A DNA stretch of 64,000 bases from Firmicutes bacterium HGW-Firmicutes-14 (GTDB lineage Bacteria; Bacillota; Thermincolia; Thermincolales; UBA2595), in assembly GCA_002840275.1 (NCBI GenBank), contig PHAB01000004.1:1-64000 (forward strand), given 5' to 3'. Every line of letters begins with the position of its first letter. Position 1 is the first letter of the stretch. Positions 30,520 through 43,309 of the stretch are shown one piece after another. Under the pieces are notes generated by a model that saw only the letters and a program-made list of their open reading frames with translations, was not told where the DNA came from and did not search any database. The position numbers and the translations under genes were made by a program.

Positions 30520-30546
30520 GAAAAAACCCCTGCAGAGCAGGAGCAG
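30520..30546 (-). terminator. Terminator of the multicopper-oxidase operon
   Basis: Minus-strand CCTGC/GCAGG hairpin with flanking G residues followed by TTTTTTCTTTTTTT, 60 bases after the last oxidase-like gene. Confidence 0.6.
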
Positions 30547-30605: not shown

Positions 30606-31544
30606 TCAAACCACTTCAATAACAGTCATCATTCCCCCGGGGAATGTATTATCATTGACCGAACAGTTCAGATTCCGGTCATAGAGCATATATTGCCCGG
30701 CGGCCGGGGCGGTAAATAGAAGGTCATACGACTGGCCTGACCCGATTGTTATGGTGTTTTTTTCATAACTCTTATCCAAACCGGCGGATAACAGGGGCCA
30801 GCTGTCCCCTGCCATTACCCTGGGGGTGATGCCCAGAAACCTGATGTTGTGATTTATAAACCCGGCATTGATAATCCTCAATAAAACCCTCTGCCCTGAA
30901 GTAACGGATACCCTGGAACCATAGGGCTGGCCGCCGCCACTGTCGGGGTCCGTGGTATCAGGGTAGCTTCTTCCGTTAATGATGAAATGACCAGGATTGA
31001 ATTCTGCCGCCGGAGATCCCGCAGCAAGCTCTTGATGAAGGTTTGTGTCTATTTCACCTGTCACCAGGATTTTTTCCACATCATATTCGGTTCCCGTACC
31101 GGGCCCGTATGCTGTCCATGTGGCGGGGTTCCCCGGGTCGAAACCGGCCGGGCGGACAACCATCACCCCGTACAGGCCCATCTGCACCTGTTTTTCGGGA
31201 CTGGTGCCGCTCTCATAGAGAAATATGCCGGGCCGGCCGGGGGTCAGGTTATAAGAGAAAGCGCCGCCGGGTGCGGTCTCGGAATTATAGGACACAAACA
31301 ATCCGCCGGAATCCCTGGCCGGCTGGGGAGTAAACTCCTGGCCCGGAAACATCACTGACACGGGGAAACCCAGGTCATTGGTCAGTATAACCTGCACATT
31401 GTCATTTTGGGGGACTTCCATGTGCGGACCGGGCAGCTGGGCAGGCCCGGCGGCTGAACCGGCAAACCCCCAAAAGGGAACCGGTCCTGTTCCGGGGAGT
31501 GATATATTGCCGGTTTTAGCCCAGAGGCTGAAGTTAGTTGCCAA
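30606..31544 (-). CDS. Multicopper-oxidase-like protein C (no copper ligands)
   Basis: A 312-residue protein of two cupredoxin folds, homologous to the two genes upstream (shared QVQMGLYGVMVVRP, DPGNPATWTAYGPGTGTEYD, NGRSYPDTTDPDSG, and NTFPGGMMTVIE at the end). The usual His clusters are replaced: the first domain has IFLYESG instead of a HCH motif, and the second NHNIRFLGI instead of HPxHxHG. It has no signal peptide. It is probably a structural or regulatory subunit for its paralogues and is unlikely to be an oxidase itself. Confidence 0.78.
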   Translation of the reverse strand: MATNFSLWAKTGNISLPGTGPVPFWGFAGSAAGPAQLPGPHMEVPQNDNVQVILTNDLGFPVSVMFPGQEFTPQPARDSGGLFVSYNSETAPGGAFSYNLTPGRPGIFLYESGTSPEKQVQMGLYGVMVVRPAGFDPGNPATWTAYGPGTGTEYDVEKILVTGEIDTNLHQELAAGSPAAEFNPGHFIINGRSYPDTTDPDSGGGQPYGSRVSVTSGQRVLLRIINAGFINHNIRFLGITPRVMAGDSWPLLSAGLDKSYEKNTITIGSGQSYDLLFTAPAAGQYMLYDRNLNCSVNDNTFPGGMMTVIEVV

Positions 31545-31590
31545 GTTTATTTCCTCCTTTCATATTCTGAAGAAAACCGGAAAACGAACC

Positions 31591-32796
31591 TCATCCCAGT
31601 CCTTCGATGGTCCCGGCGTCTCCAAGGGTCCCTGTGGGGAATATGGCGATCATGGTCATCATTCCTCCCGGGAATTCACCCCAGTTGGTTATCTGCATCT
31701 CTTCATGGGAATGGACCATAAAGTGATACTCTCCCACCTGGTTGAAAGAAGTGACACCTACGGGAACATCACCCTTTTCTCCCAGATAGGGGCTGCCGCT
31801 CCACATGGTCCAGCCGGCGTCACCCACACCCAGGTTCCGCAGGTTGGGCATAACCGTCGGAATGGGGTTTGACGGGTTATACCCCAGGCCGGACCAGGTA
31901 AATACCTGGTCATAGGTCTGCCCTGCCCCGACCAGCACGGTAAACTTCTTGTATGACAGGTCTTCTGTACCGTTCTTTAACAGGCTGCCATCCAGGGCAA
32001 CGATCCGGGTATGGTTTCCATGGGGGTGCAGGGGGTGGTTTTCAATCCCCCCGCCGGCATAACGGATAAGTACTTTTTCATCCGGTTCCGCCATAATCAT
32101 TGCTCCATAAGGCTGGTTAGGCATATATCCCGCATTATCCGAATTCATGGTATCAGGTGCGGAACGGCCGTTCATGGTCCAGTACCTGGGCAGGAAGTCC
32201 CTTATCTTGTAGTCCTTACCCTGTTCCACAGCCTGGTGAAGAACCGGGTCGATTTCAGATACCACGACCAGGTATTCCCGGTCAAATTCAGTATGGGTGT
32301 TTTCACCGTAAGCCGTTTTTTTCGCCGGTACAGCCGGATCATAATCGGACGGCCGGACAATTATAGCGCCGTACAAGCCCATCTGTACCTGTTTATGGGG
32401 GTTGGTACCGCTTTCATATATAAAAGTCCCGGGTCTATGGGCAGTAAAGGTATAGGTTATGGTTGGGGGGTTACCCCCCGGGTTACCGGGATAGTCAGCA
32501 AAATCAGTAAGGGAAACCAGGTTGCCGCCGCCGTCATATTTCGGTCCGGCGGGCTGCGGGCCGGAACCGGTATCAGCCGTCACACCCGATTGGCCGGGGA
32601 AAACAACGGAAGTGGCTTCAGGCAGGGTATTGGTGATGCTGATATTGACCACATCCCCCTGGTTGACAACAATCCGGGGTCCCGGCACCTGGGCCCGCTT
32701 GCCGGCGGCGTCGGTATACCCCCAGATGTAGATGCTGTTCCCGTCCGGAATGCTGATATAGCCATCGGTAACCCAAAGGTTAATATTTCTTATCAT
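31591..32796 (-). CDS. Multicopper-oxidase-like protein B (C-terminal-type ligands only)
   Basis: A 401-residue two-cupredoxin protein. Domain 1 has no HxH and reads IYESG at the HCH position. Domain 2 keeps a ligand set: ENHPLHPHGNH (His254, 257, 259, 262) and EYHFMVHSHEEMQITNWG (His358, 362, 364; Met367), resembling the terminal copper domain of three-domain oxidases but with Ser in place of the type-1 Cys. No signal peptide. It starts 16 bases after protein A stops. It would need partner domains to complete a trinuclear site. Confidence 0.8.
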   Translation of the reverse strand: MIRNINLWVTDGYISIPDGNSIYIWGYTDAAGKRAQVPGPRIVVNQGDVVNISITNTLPEATSVVFPGQSGVTADTGSGPQPAGPKYDGGGNLVSLTDFADYPGNPGGNPPTITYTFTAHRPGTFIYESGTNPHKQVQMGLYGAIIVRPSDYDPAVPAKKTAYGENTHTEFDREYLVVVSEIDPVLHQAVEQGKDYKIRDFLPRYWTMNGRSAPDTMNSDNAGYMPNQPYGAMIMAEPDEKVLIRYAGGGIENHPLHPHGNHTRIVALDGSLLKNGTEDLSYKKFTVLVGAGQTYDQVFTWSGLGYNPSNPIPTVMPNLRNLGVGDAGWTMWSGSPYLGEKGDVPVGVTSFNQVGEYHFMVHSHEEMQITNWGEFPGGMMTMIAIFPTGTLGDAGTIEGLG

Positions 32797-32811
32797 CTTT
32801 AATCCCTCCAG

Positions 32812-33840
32812 TTACTGCCCCGGCCCTGGCTGCGGAGGCAGGGACCCGGCGAGGATTTGTATTTCGGAGACCATGCCCCCTGGCGCTGTCCCGGCATTGA
32901 CATTTTTGTGATAATCCCTGTTAAATAAGGGGTAAGTACCGGCTGACGGGGCCGTAAAAATGGCGTCCATTGTCTGTCCGGCGGCAAAATAGAGGGCGTT
33001 TTTCCGGTAGGACAGGTTTTCACCGTTAAGGCCAAGAGGACGCTGGGCATCCTGGCCGATAACGTGCAGGGGTACGCCAAGGATTTCAATTGAATGCTGC
33101 TGGTAACCCAGATTAACGAACCGGAGCAGGACCTTATCCCCGCTATTGGCCCTGATCAGAGAGGAATACGGCTGGTAAGGCAGCGCCCCGGAAGGTTCCA
33201 CTGTATCGGGGTAAGACCTCCCGTTGTTCAGCCAGTAATCAGGTTTGTAGTCAGTCCAGTCATATTCCTGGACAGCTTCAATCTGCTGGTGGGCCCTGGT
33301 ATCCAGTTCCGTCAGAAAGATAAAGTATTCGCGGTCAAATTCGGTCCCTGTACCATGGCCGTACGCAGTCTTATAAGCAGGGTTACCCGGGTCATAGTCG
33401 GCCGGTCTGACCAGCAGCGGCCCGACCATACCCATCTGAATATGTTCCACAGGTTCAAAGTGGCAGTGGTATATATATGTGCCCGGGGCGAGGGGCTTAT
33501 AGTAATAGACGAAATCCCGGCCTACCAGCACAGATATTGAGGCTTCCGGAACCCCATCCCAGACAGGGATCTGGTTGGGGAAACCATGCCAGTGTATCGT
33601 GTGGGAATCATCAAGGTCCGGCCTGACCGGCATTCCCAGGTTGGTGAGAGTCAGGTAAACCTCATCTCCCACTTTTGCCTCCAGGAGGGGTCCCAGGAGC
33701 TGGGCCTTGCCCCGGTAAGAAAAAATTTCATTTTCCGGTATCCCGGTCAGGTCTACCCATCCGAAGATATATATTTCCGAGCCTCCGGGCACCCTGATAT
33801 AGCCGTCGGTAGCCCCGAAGCGTTTGTTAATAGTGGCCAT
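32812..33840 (-). CDS. Multicopper-oxidase-like protein A (N-terminal-type ligands)
   Basis: A 342-residue two-cupredoxin protein. Domain 1 carries SHTIHWHG (His80, 83, 85) and YHCHFEPVEHIQMGM (His125, Cys126, His127, His133, Met136/138), covering HxH ligands and a type-1-like Cys. Domain 2 lacks His clusters (QQHSIEILG). ATG at 33840 follows a GGGGG Shine-Dalgarno. No signal peptide or TAT motif. It lies 13 bases after the giant beta-helix gene. Together with protein B its ligands could form a complete oxidase. Confidence 0.82.
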   Translation of the reverse strand: MATINKRFGATDGYIRVPGGSEIYIFGWVDLTGIPENEIFSYRGKAQLLGPLLEAKVGDEVYLTLTNLGMPVRPDLDDSHTIHWHGFPNQIPVWDGVPEASISVLVGRDFVYYYKPLAPGTYIYHCHFEPVEHIQMGMVGPLLVRPADYDPGNPAYKTAYGHGTGTEFDREYFIFLTELDTRAHQQIEAVQEYDWTDYKPDYWLNNGRSYPDTVEPSGALPYQPYSSLIRANSGDKVLLRFVNLGYQQHSIEILGVPLHVIGQDAQRPLGLNGENLSYRKNALYFAAGQTMDAIFTAPSAGTYPLFNRDYHKNVNAGTAPGGMVSEIQILAGSLPPQPGPGQ

Positions 33841-33853
33841 TGTTTTACCCCCT

Positions 33854-36800
33854 TCAATACACTTTGGGATACGTTCCGGGCCTGTGCCCCATGAGCCTGG
33901 GAATCCTCCCGATGAATCGGGCCGGGAACCGGATACCCCTTCTCCTGAGCATTTCTTCAACGATGTCAAATATTCTCCTCACCGGATAAGGGAGTGGGAC
34001 GGGCCAGTATTCATCGGCTCCGATATCATACCTTTTCCACGGCCGGGGGTCATCGTCAAAATCGAAGGGCGGCGCGGCCCATACCAGACCCCTGGCGGTA
34101 AAGGTCCGGGTCCCGGTGTTGACTGCCGGTGAATTGGCACGGAGGTGGTAATTCCCTTCCGCTTCAGGAGTTACCGTGACAATTTTTACCGATATAAACC
34201 TGGGTTCAGTGGTAAAGGCCACCGCATCCACCCTGGTATTGTATTCCCGGATGAACCTGGGCGGGTTTTTACCCTTATATACGATATTATGAACCCCGGA
34301 ACCATAGGGAACAGAGAGATAGCTATAGTTAGGTGTCATAAATTGAGGTGCGGGTGTACCAAACACCTCCAGGTCAATGACCATGTAACCGGTAGAAAGT
34401 TTACCTGTATTTAGATCAAAGTAATGGGCGCGGTTATCCCAAAACAGGTTATTAAACAGAACAGGGTTGCTGAAAACCGGGGAGCCGGGCGGCAGTGAGG
34501 CCTGGAAAGCGGCGCTGTTGGGTTCGCTGGCCAGTCCTGCGGCATGGGGCCTGCCGTCACTGTCTTCGGCGGTGGCAGTGGTGATGTTTTTGGCAATGGT
34601 ATTATTGGAGATGATCACATTGGAAGCGTCATCCAGGGCGATGCCGCCCCCCAAATCGGTCGATACATTGTTGACAATCATATTGTTATATATCCGGATC
34701 CGGTACCTGCCGGGCTGCAGCAGCCTGATTCCTCCCCCGTCATCATTGGCCACATTGCCCTGGATGCAGTTGTTGTAAACCCGGACCTCACCTGACCCGG
34801 CGGAGAGGACTGCCGGCGGTATGGGCTGTTCCCCGCCGATGAATATTCCTGCCCCTTCATCAAAAGAGGCATTAAAGGATACACAGTTATGGTGGATACG
34901 GCCATACCTGCTGAGCCCGTAATGGGAGATTCCTCCCCCGTATTCAGCCGAATAATTGCCGCAGATTTCATTATGGTCTATTTCGTAGTAATGGGCACCG
35001 TTAAATATGCCTATGGCGCCGGCCAGGCTGATCCCGCCGTTATTTAAAATACGGTTATGATATATCCTTACATGGTCATTGTAATTAGACCCGGCATAAG
35101 CCCTGCCGAGAGTGACGGCCCCGCCGAAACCGCCGCCATTGCTTTGGATAATATTGTTGCTGATTTCCAGATAACTGCAGTAGGCATTGGCATAAAGGCC
35201 CCCGCCCTCTTCACCCCTGGCGCCGGTGATATAGAAGCCGTCAATCTGGGTGTGGAAGACCCGGCTGAAGGCCCCTGATTGTGCGACTACCGTTATTACC
35301 TGGCCTCTCGGTATTTCCTGGGGTCCGTCAAAAGTGATGCTGTTGAGGGTGTTTTCCCACCGGTCAAGATAACTCAGGAAAAACCGGCCGTCGATTTTCG
35401 TCACTTCAGGTCCATACCCCTGGATCTTCACGTTCTTGTAAAGGATGGGGCTTTCATAATAGGTCCCGGCCGGGACAATTATCAGGCTCCTGTCCGGGGC
35501 GCTGTCAATAGCCGCCTGGATTGACCCGCCCGCCGGTACATTGGCAACAGGGGGATTGTAGTTTGTGCCCAGGACATGAATGGTTAAACCCGTAGGTGTC
35601 ACCCGCCCGTCAGTCCTGTACAGCAGCAGCTGCCAGGCCCCGCTGGAAAAACTCCTGGGCACGGCACAGGTGACCCGGTTATTCCTCCACCGGCTGATTG
35701 GCAGAAACCGGTCATTAAGAGTAACGAAACCTATGGAGTTACCGAAATCCTTTCCTTCAATGACCAGTGTCCTTGACCCGGCCGGTGTCAGGTAAACCCT
35801 GTTTACCGAAGTAATCTGCGGAGTACCGGCTTTAACCCTGCAGAGAGGCGGTTGGGAGAACTGGGAACCCGGTGTTTCCACAAAGGCGGTTATGGGAAAC
35901 AGGGCGACATCCGCGTAAGTTGTTTTACCGGGCCAGACATCAAAGACCAGTTTCAGGGTCTGGTAATTGGGATTAAAGTGTTCATTTGGCGTGTCCGGGT
36001 CCCCCGGGTCATTTCCGATAACCTGGTACATCCCGGGAGCCACCCCTGAAGGTGAAGGGATATTAGCCGTATAGGTGGACGGCAGGACAACTTCGAATAT
36101 CCCGTTAGGGTCGGAATATACAGTGGTAATCAGACGTCCCTTATAATCCCTGATACCTACCGGAGCATGAGGAATTCCGCGCTTTTCCCCGTAATAAATC
36201 CTGGCAGGGTCGGTCTCTATGTTCACATCATCCAGCAAAAACCCCACGATTCTGCCTGGGACAGGCACATCAGTATACAGGAAGAAATCTGCCGCGGCAT
36301 TAAGCCCCCAGCCCAGGGTGACAATTTTGGCCGTCCTGGACGAACCCTCATACGGCGGGGGAAGCATCTGGGCAGTTACATTTTCACTGGGAATAAAAGT
36401 GTCCCCTTCCCCGGTATTTACTGATGATTCATCAATGGGCTTATACCCCGGGGGCACCTCTACCTCAACAATGTAAGTCCCTTCAGGCAATGGTTCAAAG
36501 GCATATCCCCCGTCAAAAACGCCCCGGGCTAAATAATTACCGGTGCCGGGGACTTCCCGGACAGGTGTCCCGTCAGGGTTGAGGGGGTGTTCCCAGGCGT
36601 CGGTGGCGACAGAGTTGATCTTGGGCCCCCTTGTTATCTCCCCGGTTACCGGGTCAGTCTCTGTGGCATAGAGATTGACTGCCACATTGGGGATTCCCGG
36701 TTCATAGTCCTCGGGCAGGGAAAATCGGGGATCCAGTTCATTGCGCATGGTGGCATAATAAACTATACCGGAAATACCCCCATTGGTAATATCATCAGCA

Positions 36801-38347
36801 GTGCCGGTAACGCCGTCCGGTCCGGGCAGGGGATATTCCTTTTTGCCCCAGTCGATTTTATTTTTCTTGGCTGCCCAGGTGAGGGCAGCCAGGGTCAGGT
36901 CGCCATCATAGACAACGGTGGGCTTTTGGTCAGGATTATCATAATCAGCGGTGGCGGTTGCGGTGGTCCGGCCAAAACGGGTAAAGCCAACTTCTGATAC
37001 ATTGAAACGTTCCAGTTCAAAGACTTCATTTAGCGCATAATTCCCTTCCATATCTGTGACCGTACTGTACTGGACGCTGCCGTCCTTAAACCGGGTACCC
37101 ACTTCCACATTTGGTATGCCCTCTTCACCGGAGTCAAATATGCCGTTGCCGTTCACATCCCGGAAAACCTTCCCGGCAATCCATCCATACCAGCGGGGAA
37201 TACCGATCTGTCCGGGGTACCTGTCCGGGTCATCGGATAAGGAAATATTCCAGCTGCCAGTTTCAGGGTCAGGCATCTGGACAGTACGGAAGGAAATGAT
37301 ATAGTCAAGGGGTTCATCCCAAACGGCCATCTGGTATACCCCTGCCGGGACATTGGTGATGGTGATGCTGCCATTGGTATCACCCCGGCCGGTATAAACC
37401 TGTTTATCTGTCCGCCCTATGTCAGTCAGGGCAACCCACGGCCTGTCGACCGGGTCTCCCAGGGTCAGGGGTTTCGTGGGGGGGACAAACTCAATTGTTG
37501 TCCTGACCCGGGTGGTTATGGTCCCGGTGGTTTCCCCCGGAGCGGGAGCAGGAAATTCCATCGGCCTTACAAAACCAAACCATACAAGAGGAGCCTTAAA
37601 ACCTTCCCGCGGGCTGTAGCCGTCATTGCCTTCCTCTATCCAGGCATCGATTACATGGGTCCCTTCTATAGTGGTGGTCTGGATCCAATCCGTCCCGTCG
37701 GGAGGAATTGCCTGGACTTCGTATTTCCCGGGGGCCAGGTTGTCAATAACGGCATCCCCGTTCCCGTCTGTCCATATTATCCCGCCTGTGTTGGAGACAG
37801 GTACCGGCTTCCCGTCAGGCCCGAAAATTATTTTACCCTCTGAATCTTTCTGGTACTGAGTACCAATGATATTTCCGAAATAATCTGTGGTTACCTCCCC
37901 GACAATATCCCCGATAACTATCCGGAAACCGGGCAGCCCCGATTCGAGGGGGATATCATCTTCACCGTTGACAGGACTGTTGTCATGAAACACGTGAACC
38001 CGGATTTTGGAGAGTGGCAGGGGGTCAGGCTGAAGGCTGACAATTGCCGTGGCACTGGAAGTGACGTTCACATGCAGACCGCCGAGCTTATAACCTGGGG
38101 CCAGGACAGAAATGAGGTAATTCCCCCCGGGCACCTCCACTGCGGGCAGGGTTGAATCCCCTGTGGCCACGACCGGACTGTGACTGGCCCCGGGCTTTAG
38201 TGACGGCCAGTTGTTCGGGTCAGGGTCAAAGGGGTTTCCCACGTTATTTTCATTGACTATGAATTTGAAATCGTTAACCTGTGTTCCCGTTGTCACGTCT
38301 TTCACTTGTATGGTAAGGAGGTAAGTATCTATGTTTCTACTGCTCAT
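33854..38347 (-). CDS. Giant beta-rich protein with SdrB-like, TIG and beta-helix domains
   Basis: A 1497-residue protein. Seen in order: carboxypeptidase-regulatory-like beta-sandwich repeats (VEVPGGNYLISVLAPGYK and similar) over ~1-370; SdrD-B-like domains with GKVFRDVNGNGIFDSGEEGIPNVEV and further copies to ~830; a TIG-type domain at ~850-930 (RTLVIEGKDFGNSIGFVTLND); then a right-handed beta-helix at ~940-1330 (IQAAIDSAPDRSLIIVPAGTYYES, with many N-rich turns such as ISNNIIQSNGGG). There is no signal peptide, transmembrane helix or sorting signal, unusual for such domains. First gene of the multicopper-oxidase operon; likely a scaffold. Confidence 0.8.
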   Translation of the reverse strand: MSSRNIDTYLLTIQVKDVTTGTQVNDFKFIVNENNVGNPFDPDPNNWPSLKPGASHSPVVATGDSTLPAVEVPGGNYLISVLAPGYKLGGLHVNVTSSATAIVSLQPDPLPLSKIRVHVFHDNSPVNGEDDIPLESGLPGFRIVIGDIVGEVTTDYFGNIIGTQYQKDSEGKIIFGPDGKPVPVSNTGGIIWTDGNGDAVIDNLAPGKYEVQAIPPDGTDWIQTTTIEGTHVIDAWIEEGNDGYSPREGFKAPLVWFGFVRPMEFPAPAPGETTGTITTRVRTTIEFVPPTKPLTLGDPVDRPWVALTDIGRTDKQVYTGRGDTNGSITITNVPAGVYQMAVWDEPLDYIISFRTVQMPDPETGSWNISLSDDPDRYPGQIGIPRWYGWIAGKVFRDVNGNGIFDSGEEGIPNVEVGTRFKDGSVQYSTVTDMEGNYALNEVFELERFNVSEVGFTRFGRTTATATADYDNPDQKPTVVYDGDLTLAALTWAAKKNKIDWGKKEYPLPGPDGVTGTADDITNGGISGIVYYATMRNELDPRFSLPEDYEPGIPNVAVNLYATETDPVTGEITRGPKINSVATDAWEHPLNPDGTPVREVPGTGNYLARGVFDGGYAFEPLPEGTYIVEVEVPPGYKPIDESSVNTGEGDTFIPSENVTAQMLPPPYEGSSRTAKIVTLGWGLNAAADFFLYTDVPVPGRIVGFLLDDVNIETDPARIYYGEKRGIPHAPVGIRDYKGRLITTVYSDPNGIFEVVLPSTYTANIPSPSGVAPGMYQVIGNDPGDPDTPNEHFNPNYQTLKLVFDVWPGKTTYADVALFPITAFVETPGSQFSQPPLCRVKAGTPQITSVNRVYLTPAGSRTLVIEGKDFGNSIGFVTLNDRFLPISRWRNNRVTCAVPRSFSSGAWQLLLYRTDGRVTPTGLTIHVLGTNYNPPVANVPAGGSIQAAIDSAPDRSLIIVPAGTYYESPILYKNVKIQGYGPEVTKIDGRFFLSYLDRWENTLNSITFDGPQEIPRGQVITVVAQSGAFSRVFHTQIDGFYITGARGEEGGGLYANAYCSYLEISNNIIQSNGGGFGGAVTLGRAYAGSNYNDHVRIYHNRILNNGGISLAGAIGIFNGAHYYEIDHNEICGNYSAEYGGGISHYGLSRYGRIHHNCVSFNASFDEGAGIFIGGEQPIPPAVLSAGSGEVRVYNNCIQGNVANDDGGGIRLLQPGRYRIRIYNNMIVNNVSTDLGGGIALDDASNVIISNNTIAKNITTATAEDSDGRPHAAGLASEPNSAAFQASLPPGSPVFSNPVLFNNLFWDNRAHYFDLNTGKLSTGYMVIDLEVFGTPAPQFMTPNYSYLSVPYGSGVHNIVYKGKNPPRFIREYNTRVDAVAFTTEPRFISVKIVTVTPEAEGNYHLRANSPAVNTGTRTFTARGLVWAAPPFDFDDDPRPWKRYDIGADEYWPVPLPYPVRRIFDIVEEMLRRRGIRFPARFIGRIPRLMGHRPGTYPKVY

Positions 38348-38610: not shown

Positions 38611-39435
38611 TTATCCCTGAAACCAATGACAAATATTACAATAAGTTCCGGTCGCTGTACTACCTGGTTCATTCCTGTCGTGGCATGTAAAACAATTTCG
38701 AAGTCCGTTTTTCTGGGCTCTGGAACTATGAACCGGTATTTCTTCATGCCTGTATTGCAGATGGCAACTGTAACAAAAACTGTTTGCCCTGGCCAAATCC
38801 GCTATCTTATCCCCCACAGAAGGGGTAACATATGTGGGCCCTTCATTATCATTATGACAATAAGCGCAATCATCCGGAGCCTTACGGCCGGTGATACCAT
38901 GGGCCGTACCACCCCACGCGCTGGCCTGGTGGGAATCGGGCTTAACCGCCTGGTCTACCCCAAAGGTAACCGTAACCGTCTGGGTCTGGCCATTCCAGTC
39001 AACCAAAGCTCCCAGGGTCTCCCCCACAAACCGGACAGGAACCATGGTCCTGCCGTTGATTGCCCGGGGAGCCACATCCAGTACCACTTCATTGGAGGTC
39101 GAATATACCACATCCCGGACCATGGCCTTATTGGAACCCAGGGTTAATGTAATTTCTCTGTCCGCAAAGGTAATAATAACCTGCTGGGTTTCCGCCGCCC
39201 ATGCGATAACCCCTCCTATGTTCTCTACCAGAGTTCTGATGGGCAGAAGAGTGCGGCCGCTGATAACAACGGGAGTGGTTCCCCTGCCGGGGTCAATTTC
39301 CTGTTTTACCCCATTAACTGTCATAAATGGGTCCCCGATTTTGAGAACAATTGTTTTTTCGCCATCTGCCCGGGCTACCACTGCAATCATGAGGACCAGA
39401 ATTGCCGCAAACATCAGGACTAATCTGTTTTTCAA
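38611..39435 (-). CDS. Secreted copper-amine-oxidase-N / tetrahaem cytochrome c protein
   Basis: A 274-residue protein: signal peptide ~1-23 (LVLMFAAILVLMIAVVARA), a copper-amine-oxidase N-terminal (stalk) domain at ~35-160 with the paired repeats GRTLLPIRTLVENIGG and GRTMVPVRFVGETLGA, and a C-terminal domain with four CxxCH haem sites (Cys190-His194, Cys221-His225, Cys248-His252, Cys266-His270). Extra His at 169, 179, 230 and 236 could be distal ligands. It is an exported electron carrier, with the stalk domain probably binding the cell wall. It lies between the LVIVD gene and the oxidase operon. Confidence 0.9.
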   Translation of the reverse strand: MKNRLVLMFAAILVLMIAVVARADGEKTIVLKIGDPFMTVNGVKQEIDPGRGTTPVVISGRTLLPIRTLVENIGGVIAWAAETQQVIITFADREITLTLGSNKAMVRDVVYSTSNEVVLDVAPRAINGRTMVPVRFVGETLGALVDWNGQTQTVTVTFGVDQAVKPDSHQASAWGGTAHGITGRKAPDDCAYCHNDNEGPTYVTPSVGDKIADLARANSFCYSCHLQYRHEEIPVHSSRAQKNGLRNCFTCHDRNEPGSTATGTYCNICHWFQG

Positions 39436-39589: not shown

Positions 39590-42500
39590 CTACTTAAAGA
39601 ATACCAGGCCTCCTGACCCGTCAGCCGCGTATACACGGCCGTTGGACACAACCACTGCCGTACATTCGCCAACAGTAGGCGCAACTTCTTCGAGGACAGG
39701 GTTTGCCGGGTCAGTCCAGTTAATCTTGAGGACACCGGCTTCAGCAAAGGCTACATAGAAGACCAGTTTTCCGTTGACTTCAGTATAATCCATCTTAAAG
39801 GCCCCGCCTGCCCAGTCTTCATAACCTGGTACATACTGGAGCTTAAACCTGCTGACAGCCTCCGGCCTGTAATCATACAACAGCACTCCGCTCTGGTTCT
39901 TTTTCCATACATCAGTGGGACTTACCCCATCAGGCAGGGCTTCAATAAGGTCATATATGTCGTAACATACAACTCCAAAGCTGTCATAAGTGAAATATGC
40001 CCTGCTGCCCGCAACTTTGACATCAGTAGCCTGCCCGTCAGCTGCTCCCACCTTGTCGTCCTCATATTTTACCGGTTCAAAAACCTTGATAAGTTTCATA
40101 TTGGACACATCAGTTATATCCACTACACCAACACCCCGAGGCCCACAGGCGATAAAGGCATAAGACCTGCCATCAGCTGGGTCGGTCCACAGGGCAATCC
40201 CGGAAGCTGTACCCAGGGGCGGCTTTTCTGCTCCTGCTCCCAGGTTGGAGACCAGGAAGCCGCTGCCGGGATCGGTAGAATCCTTGGTGTAGTCATAGAC
40301 TGTCAAACCGTTACTGCCATCGGCTGCAAACGCATAGTTGCCCTTGATGGCCACATCATAGGCATGGTCCTGGAACTGCACATCTCTGACAGTACCCCAT
40401 TCGGCATTATGCTCAAAACAGTCAGTCAGGGCAAGGGGAAGCAGCAGCGGGGTCCCTATCTGCCCGTGACCTGCTTCGACATCAGATACATTAACTCTCC
40501 TTAAACCAAGACTGGCGCTGCCTGACCAGGCCACGTGGTTTACAGGGTCATAGATAACATTGGTCGCGTGCGAAGCCGGGTAGATCTTGACTCCATTGAC
40601 GATTTCGGGGTATTCATCCTGCAGGGTGTTGGCCACTAAATGTATGTCATCGGTGGCAAACCCTTCTTCATCCACCAGTTTCCACGCCGTAATCCCGTGG
40701 GGCCCGTCGGAAACATAAAGGTAAGTATCGGATGCTGCCACTCCCTGGCTGTGTCCTATAGAAATCGTCTGGGTGGGAGTACTGTCGGCAGCTGCGCCAA
40801 TCTCATCAGTCGGAGGGAAATATACCGGTACACTGTAACGCTCTTCCATGACCGGAGCATTCAGGTCAACAATGTCTACATAATTGAATCCACCGCCCCC
40901 CGCACATTCCAAAAGGTCCACATTACCGGCAGTATCCACAGACATCTCATCCATCAGCAGGAGGCTGTTGCCGTGGCCATTGATTTCCGCTGTAGCCAGC
41001 AGGCACGGTGATTCATACATCCAAGCAGGCAAGGATTCATTGTCATTGGGATCATAGGGTGACATGTTATATGATGTGATAAACTCCGAATCAGGCCAGT
41101 GATTCCCCATGATACCGTCTGTATCATTATTATACGGCCCGTCCGGACCGTGCCAGCCCATTTCCGGAGCAGAAGCATTGTCAACAATAACCAGTCCGGC
41201 AAAGTGGTCTGTGATATATACATAATCACCCCTCACCTGAACGTCCACAATACCGGATTCTTTAAGCATTCCGGCCCCAAAATAGGGCAGGAGGCTCTCG
41301 GACTGCTCACCGGTAGGCTCTTTGGGCCCATTTGCAGGGACTGCGGGAACATAGCCCAGGTAGCTGGCATTGAAGAAATTATCCGCAGCACCTTCCCGGT
41401 AACCGGTAATGTCAACCGCCACCAAGCCTCCCAGGGAATATGCGATATAGGCGATGGTGCGGCCGTTAATCTCCGCGATATCAACACTTTGGGCCTTATA
41501 ATAAAACTTGCCGCAGCGGTCAAAATCAGCCCACGGGGTTGGCGCATCCAAATTTTGTTTCATTACCTGAAGGATTTCAAAACTTGTCTGCCGGTAGTCC
41601 GGCATTCCTGTAAAGCTATCCAGGTAAACCTCACCTGTTACCGAGTCTCTCTGAACTGCCTGGGCAGGATCCATACCCACAAACCAATCCTCTAAAACAG
41701 TGGCATCAGTATAAAGGTTATACCTGCCTACCTGCTCAAGGGAAGCAGGGTCAAAAATCCCAAGGCCCAGGGAGCCAATGCAGGCAAACAGCCTGTCCCC
41801 GTAAAGGGCAAGGTCCAGCGGCCCGCCCCACGGGTTTTCCCCCGCATACTGGAGAGTGTATTTTTCGGCCTCAATAAACAGTGTGCCGTCAGGCTCCAGG
41901 ACAGGCCCCCCTTCGGCAAGCAGGTTATCCAGGGCAGTGCGGTGGATTCCATAGCCGCCGTCAGCAATAAACAGGGTTGCCCCATCAGTCTCAAGGGCGG
42001 CAATAGGTGCCTGTACACTGGATATCTCATTGTCATAAAGGATAGCCCCGCCGCCCTCAGTAAAGGTGATTCCGCCCTGGTAGTAATTGACATGAACCCG
42101 GTTAACCAAGACCATATTATATGGGTCACTGATGTCAACAACCCCGATTCCTTCCGAACCCATGGACAGAAGGGCATAGTTGGTCCCGTTATATGTCACC
42201 AGGTCAATATCATGGACAAACCCAGGCACATAAACAAAGTTAACGGGACCCGCCGATGCGCCTACAGGGGCTGCACAGAGCTTGCTGCCGATATTGAAGA
42301 TCGACCAGTCAATGCCGTTGGATACAAACTTGTTCACAGCTGTCGTGGCACCCCCTACCTGGACATAGGTGCCAAGGAACGGGAACATATCACCAGGTTC
42401 AACATATATGCTTACCCTGGCTGAATCACTGTTTCCGTCAGTATCACTGACGGTCAATTGGAAGACCAGCTCAACATCAGCTGCCACAGAAAGTCCGCTG

Positions 42501-43309
42501 ATATCCAAGACGGCATTGGAGGCATCAACAGCCGACAAACCAACCTTGGGCCCCGAAACCTGTTCCCACGTATAATCTGCCGGGGTGCCCTCGATCATAG
42601 CGAAAAGGTAAACAGCATCTGCTGTATTTTCCACAAAGGAGGTTTGGGAAGCCGCCAGGTAAACGATTGATACCACAGTACCGGACGGCGCCAGTGCAAA
42701 ATCACAAACGGATTCTGCCCCGGGCTCAACCGCGACCTGCTGTTCTGACGAAACATGACCGTCAGCCGATACAGAGACCTGGTAAGTACCGGCAATGACC
42801 CCGGTTATGGTAAATTTACCGTCATTTCCGGTTACAGCGCTGTATCCCCCCTCTGAAACGGTGAAAACAGCCCCATCCAAAGGTGTTCCTGTAGTGCTGT
42901 CAATAACTGTTCCTGAAATGATTCCGGTTGTTTCCATAGCCTCATTTAGGCTGAAATTTAGGGTTGTGGTAGTCCCATTCTTTGTGGTTACCTGCTCTCC
43001 GGCAGTGTTATAACCTGCAGCTTCGCATGTAACCGTATATGTACCTTCGGGCAAGCCCAGGGAATAGGTGCCTTTACCGGCGGATACCGCACTGAAGGCC
43101 CCTGTCTCCCCGGAAGCTGTAACAACTGCATCGGGAATGCCTGTCTTTGTTCCAGAAATCGTCACTTTACCGGAAATCATGGCTTCTGCCGGTTCCGGTG
43201 CCGGTTTCCCCCCGCCGCCTTTATCCGCTGACACAGGTGCAGCAAACACGGACATGACAAATACCAGGCACATAATTAATGCCAATCTTCTTTTAAGTTT
43301 TTTACTCAT
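39590..43309 (-). CDS. Large secreted LVIVD-repeat beta-propeller protein
   Basis: A 1239-residue exported protein. Signal peptide ~1-29 (LALIMCLVFVMSVFAAPVSA), then two carboxypeptidase-regulatory-like domains (ISGKVTISGTKTGIPDAVV; GIISGTVIDSTTGTPLDGAVF), a PKD/cadherin-like domain (~215-305), and a long run of LVIVD-type blades: IGVVDISDPYNMVLVNRV, DVQVRGDYVYITDHFAGLVIVD, YDVAIKGNYAFAADGSNGLTVYD, GVGVVDITDVSNMKLIKVF. No haem motifs or membrane anchor. Related proteins in metal-reducing bacteria sit next to multihaem cytochromes, as here. Function unknown; a surface scaffold or binding role is inferred. Confidence 0.85.
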   Translation of the reverse strand: MSKKLKRRLALIMCLVFVMSVFAAPVSADKGGGGKPAPEPAEAMISGKVTISGTKTGIPDAVVTASGETGAFSAVSAGKGTYSLGLPEGTYTVTCEAAGYNTAGEQVTTKNGTTTTLNFSLNEAMETTGIISGTVIDSTTGTPLDGAVFTVSEGGYSAVTGNDGKFTITGVIAGTYQVSVSADGHVSSEQQVAVEPGAESVCDFALAPSGTVVSIVYLAASQTSFVENTADAVYLFAMIEGTPADYTWEQVSGPKVGLSAVDASNAVLDISGLSVAADVELVFQLTVSDTDGNSDSARVSIYVEPGDMFPFLGTYVQVGGATTAVNKFVSNGIDWSIFNIGSKLCAAPVGASAGPVNFVYVPGFVHDIDLVTYNGTNYALLSMGSEGIGVVDISDPYNMVLVNRVHVNYYQGGITFTEGGGAILYDNEISSVQAPIAALETDGATLFIADGGYGIHRTALDNLLAEGGPVLEPDGTLFIEAEKYTLQYAGENPWGGPLDLALYGDRLFACIGSLGLGIFDPASLEQVGRYNLYTDATVLEDWFVGMDPAQAVQRDSVTGEVYLDSFTGMPDYRQTSFEILQVMKQNLDAPTPWADFDRCGKFYYKAQSVDIAEINGRTIAYIAYSLGGLVAVDITGYREGAADNFFNASYLGYVPAVPANGPKEPTGEQSESLLPYFGAGMLKESGIVDVQVRGDYVYITDHFAGLVIVDNASAPEMGWHGPDGPYNNDTDGIMGNHWPDSEFITSYNMSPYDPNDNESLPAWMYESPCLLATAEINGHGNSLLLMDEMSVDTAGNVDLLECAGGGGFNYVDIVDLNAPVMEERYSVPVYFPPTDEIGAAADSTPTQTISIGHSQGVAASDTYLYVSDGPHGITAWKLVDEEGFATDDIHLVANTLQDEYPEIVNGVKIYPASHATNVIYDPVNHVAWSGSASLGLRRVNVSDVEAGHGQIGTPLLLPLALTDCFEHNAEWGTVRDVQFQDHAYDVAIKGNYAFAADGSNGLTVYDYTKDSTDPGSGFLVSNLGAGAEKPPLGTASGIALWTDPADGRSYAFIACGPRGVGVVDITDVSNMKLIKVFEPVKYEDDKVGAADGQATDVKVAGSRAYFTYDSFGVVCYDIYDLIEALPDGVSPTDVWKKNQSGVLLYDYRPEAVSRFKLQYVPGYEDWAGGAFKMDYTEVNGKLVFYVAFAEAGVLKINWTDPANPVLEEVAPTVGECTAVVVSNGRVYAADGSGGLVFFK

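Follow-up and report, generated by a model that had tools for sequence, protein, structure and literature searches.

The locus examined here raises the question of whether three adjacent genes for multicopper oxidase (MCO)-like proteins, called A, B, and C below, encode the parts of one enzyme. An original prediction, made from the letters of the 64,000-nucleotide stretch of DNA that was analysed (the window), had proposed that A and B form a single active site between subunits, with C as a structural part. Our analysis indicates that the genes very probably encode a surface-type complex of a scaffold protein with A, B, and C, the core of which would be an obligate two-domain MCO (2dMCO) heterotrimer with one site, between domain 2 of B and domain 1 of A.

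Gene Organization

The features of the locus are as follows.

32812..33840, minus strand: A, a 342-aa two-domain MCO paralog; T1 ligands and half of the trinuclear site in domain 1
31591..32796, minus strand: B, a 401-aa two-domain MCO paralog; the other half of the trinuclear site in domain 2, no T1
30606..31544, minus strand: C, a 312-aa two-domain MCO paralog with a TTG start and no copper ligands; a third subunit, presumed to be structural
33854..38347, minus strand: scaffold gene, 1497 aa; SdrD_B/Cna-B-like, TIG, and β-helix domains, no signal peptide
30526..30544, minus strand: terminator-like hairpin with a T-run, 3' of C; a consensus match only, as the scan gave no more sites than shuffled sequences

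The three open reading frames were located on the minus strand where they had been predicted, each with its own Shine-Dalgarno sequence and its own stop, and each product matched multicopper oxidase families above the Pfam cut-off. Cu-oxidase_3 was matched in the genome by A, B, and C only, and PF00394 was matched at that threshold by C only among the three. The pairwise identities were 37–41% across both domains. The segment NGRS.PDT, predicted to be common to the three proteins, was found in all of them; QMGLYG was exact in B and C, but A has QMGMVG. The prediction had also treated A as a first and B as a last domain. The ligand types were as claimed, but A, B, and C are all complete two-cupredoxin units (about 310–400 aa) of the 2dMCO type. 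The three proteins therefore form a set of six domains, in which the ligands are confined to domain 1 of A and domain 2 of B. Furthermore, the prediction of a three-part system had missed a fourth part, the gene of approximately 1500 aa upstream of A. The gaps between the scaffold, A, B, and C genes are 13 to 46 bases, and the hairpin after C probably marks the end of a scaffold-A-B-C operon.

Copper Ligands of A and B

The ligand roles were assigned by alignment to the two-domain MCO structures 3g5w and 2zwn.

33583..33603, minus strand: A, HTIHWHG; H80 (T1), H83 (T2), and H85 (T3), by alignment to 3g5w/2zwn
33427..33468, minus strand: A, HCHFEPVEHIQMGM (H125–M138); H125 and H127 (T3), C126, H133, and a Met (T1)
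32011..32037, minus strand: B, HPLHPHGNH (H254–H262); H257 (T2) and H259 (T3), with H254 and H262 also conserved
31705..31713, minus strand: B, HSH; H362 and H364 (T3)

Domain 1 of A carries a full T1 set (H80, C126, H133, and a Met) together with the trinuclear ligands H83, H85, H125, and H127. Domain 2 of B carries the four trinuclear histidines H257, H259, H362, and H364, with Ser (or Ala) at the position where the T1 Cys would stand. The HxH and HCH-type ligands predicted for A and the HPLHPHG and HSH motifs predicted for B were thus present, and the alignment gave no ligand set in domain 2 of A, domain 1 of B, or either domain of C. A and B combined provide the ligand set of a single type C 2dMCO chain.

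Distribution, Conservation, and Phylogeny

Homologs were collected from whole genomes, GTDB contigs, and plasmid records, and no homologs were found in the viral contigs searched. The gene order A-B-C was found in 28 loci, in hosts that include Thermincola, Desulfallas, Desulfoscipio, Desulfocucumis, Desulforudis, Tepidibacillus decaturensis, and Fermentithermobacillaceae, and in 27 loci the scaffold gene immediately preceded A. In one locus (L064), a frameshift splits C. Another locus (L059), from a metagenome-assembled genome labelled Actinobacteria, is nearest to those of Desulforudis/Peptococcaceae, which probably reflects misbinning or transfer.

A complete half-site was present in 29 of the 30 A homologs and 28 of the 29 B homologs. 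The T1 ligands (H, C, H, and M) were found in every A homolog (30/30), and B and C were without T1. As for C, which had been predicted to have no ligands, neither a motif in the protein itself nor a complete half-site in any of its homologs (0/30) was found. The recurrence of this partition among the homologs (30 of A, 29 of B, and 30 of C) indicates that it did not arise by chance. Apart from the exceptions described below, the four trinuclear histidines of A and the four of B were invariant across very divergent homologs, including those of Proteobacteria.

We compared the mean entropies of the domains in pairs, using the 24 genomes having A, B, and C. Domain 1 was better conserved in A than in B (0.74 vs 1.00, p 0.003), and domain 2 was better conserved in B than in A (0.71 vs 1.08, p 2e-5); these p values are indicative, since alignment columns are not independent. 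The direction was the same when the ligand columns ±3 were left out (p 0.03 for domain 1 and 4e-4 for domain 2). C was the least conserved subunit.

In the phylogenetic trees A and B were each recovered as a single, highly supported clade, and C was recovered as a single clade in the second tree (support 94/80). The Gram-negative copies were placed congruently in the A, B, and C clades. These separate clades indicate that the triplication predates the spread of the system. A single-gene homolog of Candidatus Scalindua carries both halves in one chain along with the same family motifs, and branches beside A. It has the form expected of the ancestral, self-complementing state, although its branch is very long.

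Exceptions and Coupled Loss

The triad was not intact in G051 and G371, and G173 and G095 contained fragments. G051 (L037) possesses A and C, and no B was found in the genome. In its A protein, three of the four trinuclear positions are Y, E, and Y, and the T1 set (H, C, H, and M) is intact; it is the only one of the 30 A homologs without the trinuclear histidines. Since this protein adjoins those of Tepidibacillus and G341, both of which have B, in the tree, the loss is secondary. A shared site predicts this pattern because, without B, the half-site of A has no use. The coupled loss of B and of the trinuclear ligands of A thus appears to back a shared site, as a single event in one lineage; no further genome with A but without B was found in the smaller groups around other carriers.

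Two further loci depart from the usual form. In G371 (L111:9313-12171), a deletion relic, A and B are gone and C directly follows a truncated 578-aa scaffold. The B protein of Desulfocucumis palustris (L062:9992-11200) reads NSH, one T3 histidine being replaced, and no scaffold lies upstream; this may be a decaying copy.

Proposed Heterotrimer and Alternative Readings

An ordinary 2dMCO is a ring of three identical subunits, and each of its three trinuclear sites lies where domain 1 of a subunit meets domain 2 of the adjacent one (PMC13151041). We propose that the gene of such a homotrimer was triplicated and that complementary ligand loss followed in each copy, so that, of the three interfaces, only that of B domain 2 with A domain 1 would retain a complete site. 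The T1 site would be supplied by A (H80, C126, H133, and Met), and the trinuclear site would be built from H83, H85, H125, and H127 of A and H257, H259, H362, and H364 of B. A reductant would pass electrons to T1 in A; through the Cys-His links of H125-C126-H127 they would reach the trinuclear site common to A and B and there reduce O2 to water. C would close the ring, which the scaffold would anchor. This mechanism is drawn from the identity of the ligands and the known geometry of the family, and the ring order A-C-B follows from the geometry of the homotrimers. A-B-C would work like a 2dMCO trimer; we infer the ring geometry, the 1:1:1 stoichiometry, the copper content, and the oxidase activity.

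The sharing of one active site by A and B with C as a structural part, as originally predicted, is well supported at the level of sequence comparison by the invariant complementary ligands, the coupled loss, the mirrored conservation, the invariant gene order, and the fusions described below, although the predicted structures did not arrange A and B with confidence. That A and B are instead separate homo-oligomeric enzymes without mutual contact is extremely improbable: 2dMCOs are normally homotrimers (PMC13151041), but the loss of B accompanies the loss of the half-site of A, and neither protein completes a trinuclear site alone, as no homolog has a complete set in domain 2 of A or domain 1 of B.

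A and B might share the site within an AAB ring or another A/B assembly, with C as an adaptor to the scaffold or to the cell or spore surface. The AAB geometry also yields one B domain 2/A domain 1 interface, and the role of adaptor agrees with the low conservation of C, with its fn3 extensions in several genomes, and with its fusion to the scaffold in Burkholderiales. However, C has kept the full two-domain fold and the family motifs, and its place in the A-B-C order is maintained in the 28 loci. We therefore regard this arrangement as unlikely, albeit the best of the alternatives to the A-B-C heterotrimer.

It is also conceivable, with a still lower probability, that the proteins are no longer oxidases. 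In that case A would carry electrons by means of a mononuclear blue-copper (T1) center, and B would be a copper- or histidine-binding protein with a structural role in the surface layer. Most hosts are, judging by genus, strict anaerobes, in which the need for an O2-reducing enzyme is not obvious. Moreover, G051 retains an A protein with T1 only, and the B protein of Desulfocucumis has lost one T3 histidine. Neither a T1-only nor a structural role, however, requires the four plus four trinuclear histidines that are otherwise invariant as far as Proteobacteria.

Structure Prediction

The original prediction had suggested modelling the A-B-C complex. The A-B-C chain (from L058) and the A-B chain (from the window) were modelled with the stop codons read through, as a modelling device only. 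AlphaFold2 gave a pLDDT of 65 and a pTM of 0.42 for the former and a pLDDT of 72.1 and a pTM of 0.50 for the latter. The subunits were folded, but their arrangement was of low confidence, and A was not placed against B. In Foldseek searches, the domains matched those of ceruloplasmin, factor V/VIII, and MnxG in order, with a whole-length 3Di match and a TM to ceruloplasmin of 0.23–0.31; values of only 0.2–0.3 indicate that the models do not reproduce the six-domain arrangement. The two-domain unit matched 3g5w with a Foldseek TM of 0.72 and an rmsd of 4.4 over 335 columns. The models thus support a two-domain cupredoxin fold for the subunits.

Comparison with Known Multicopper Oxidases

The 2dMCOs are divided into types A, B, and C, and their homotrimers have interfacial trinuclear sites (PMC13151041). 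The type C enzymes (Nitrosomonas europaea blue copper oxidase 3g5w; 2zwn) resemble the proteins described here in their two cupredoxin domains and motif spacing, and they have T1 in domain 1 only, like A. Their trinuclear ligands come from domain 1 and from domain 2 of the next subunit (PMC13151041), as in our model. In contrast, the members known so far form homotrimers that have three sites, whereas one site per trimer is expected for A/B/C, and they carry both half-sites in one chain, whereas A and B carry one each and C none. As both half-sites are not found on one polypeptide, A-B-C is not an ordinary 2dMCO.

Ceruloplasmin and other six-domain MCOs also have six cupredoxin domains, with a single trinuclear site where the first domain meets the last. 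They are single chains, whereas A, B, and C are three genes with their own stops and ribosome-binding sites. In addition, ceruloplasmin has T1 in the last domain; in A-B-C, T1 is in the first, and there is no other.

The three-domain oxidase that the original prediction had taken as its template gives way to the two-domain MCO trimer (3g5w type) or to ceruloplasmin, which fit instead. In regard to three-domain laccases, CueO, and CotA, no subunit has the whole HxH, HxH, HxxHxH, and HCH set, and the scores were below all the family cut-offs. MnxEFG, which had been named as the nearest analogy, is an MCO complex of several proteins that is associated with spores in some Bacillus (PMC5622069). 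It proved to be a poor analogy because MnxG alone is a six-domain oxidase and MnxE and MnxF are small non-MCO proteins that have no known homologs. On A, the MnxG model NF041487 gave 13.7 bits against a cut-off of 3100, and membership in MnxG/MnxEFG was rejected. In POXA3-type heterodimeric fungal laccases a laccase-like subunit likewise pairs with a second protein, the small subunit raising its stability and activity; however, no sharing of copper ligands between the subunits is described there (PMC10741624). No precedent for a heterotrimeric two-domain MCO was found in the open-access literature that was searched, absence from which is no proof; the proposed three-protein oxidase, a "ceruloplasmin in pieces," seems to be previously undescribed.

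Scaffold Fusions and Burkholderiales Copies

Two distinct fusions join these proteins to the scaffold. In one locus (L061:1243-9822) a single chain of 2859 aa comprises the scaffold and A, with cadherin-like/Big_9 and PAP2/vanadium-chloroperoxidase-like domains between them. Behind A and B, Paraburkholderia and Cupriavidus metallidurans CH34 encode a large protein of 2723 aa (2698 aa), and that of Paraburkholderia is C fused to the scaffold. The profile scores of the Paraburkholderia proteins were 237 bits for A (next best 94), 205 for B (next 126), and 87 for C (next 59), and this assignment agrees with the tree. The existence of two different fusions involving one scaffold is good evidence for a functional association of A, B, C, and the scaffold.

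The Burkholderiales loci are L136:8275-19694 and L135 (Paraburkholderia largidicola AP028202; Cupriavidus metallidurans CH34 NC_007974), and their proteins are "hypothetical" where annotated. The domains within the L061 fusion suggest a possible haloperoxidase within the same complex.

Cellular Location

Signal-peptide-like N-termini were evident in the Gram-negative copies, and the Burkholderiales version appears to be a secreted form of the A-B-C-scaffold system. A simple hydropathy check gave no signal peptides in A, B, C, or the scaffold of Bacillota, which makes synthesis in the mother cell and a location on the spore surface plausible there. CotA and MnxG are spore proteins. A sigma-K-like pattern occurred upstream of the scaffold gene more often than in resampled sequence (4/24 vs 0.65), as did a relaxed pattern (12/24 vs 5.0), with none of 200 resamplings as high; as six patterns were tried and the loci are related, the promoter signal is weak. 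A link to sporulation by gene content was sought with spoIVA and discarded: nearly all carriers have the gene, but so do 335 of the 399 genomes in the phylum, which makes it uninformative about such a link.

Taken as a whole, a cross-phylum family of obligate heterotrimeric MCOs that arose when the gene of a two-domain homotrimer was triplicated and the copies degenerated in complementary ways, held by a β-helix scaffold and displayed on the spore in spore formers, seems a reasonably likely interpretation. MCO evolution is usually described as leading from two-domain homotrimers to three- and six-domain monomers via fusion. If our interpretation is true, it would show that asymmetry can arise without fusion, by triplication and complementary loss, and would provide a clear example of an enzyme ring that evolved by a constructive neutral or subfunctionalising route. 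The system would then be an extant equivalent of the transition between the symmetric 2dMCO/nitrite-reductase trimers and single-chain ceruloplasmin. It would also assign a function to genes annotated as "hypothetical" in numerous spore formers and in Burkholderiales that tolerate metals, such as Cupriavidus metallidurans CH34.

Neighboring Genes and Related Loci

Just upstream of the scaffold gene, 38611-39435 encodes a protein with a copper amine oxidase N-terminal-like domain and a cytochrome c7-like C-terminal region. The 1239-aa product of 39590-43309 has PEGA, CarboxypepD_reg, PKD, and LVIVD repeats and is weakly similar to the anammox S-layer glycoprotein Kustd1514. In two other genomes, G013 (L038:3689-7201) and G059 (L039), a 1170-aa multi-domain copper oxidase, possibly MnxG-like, lies beside a 478-aa protein with two CxxCH motifs.
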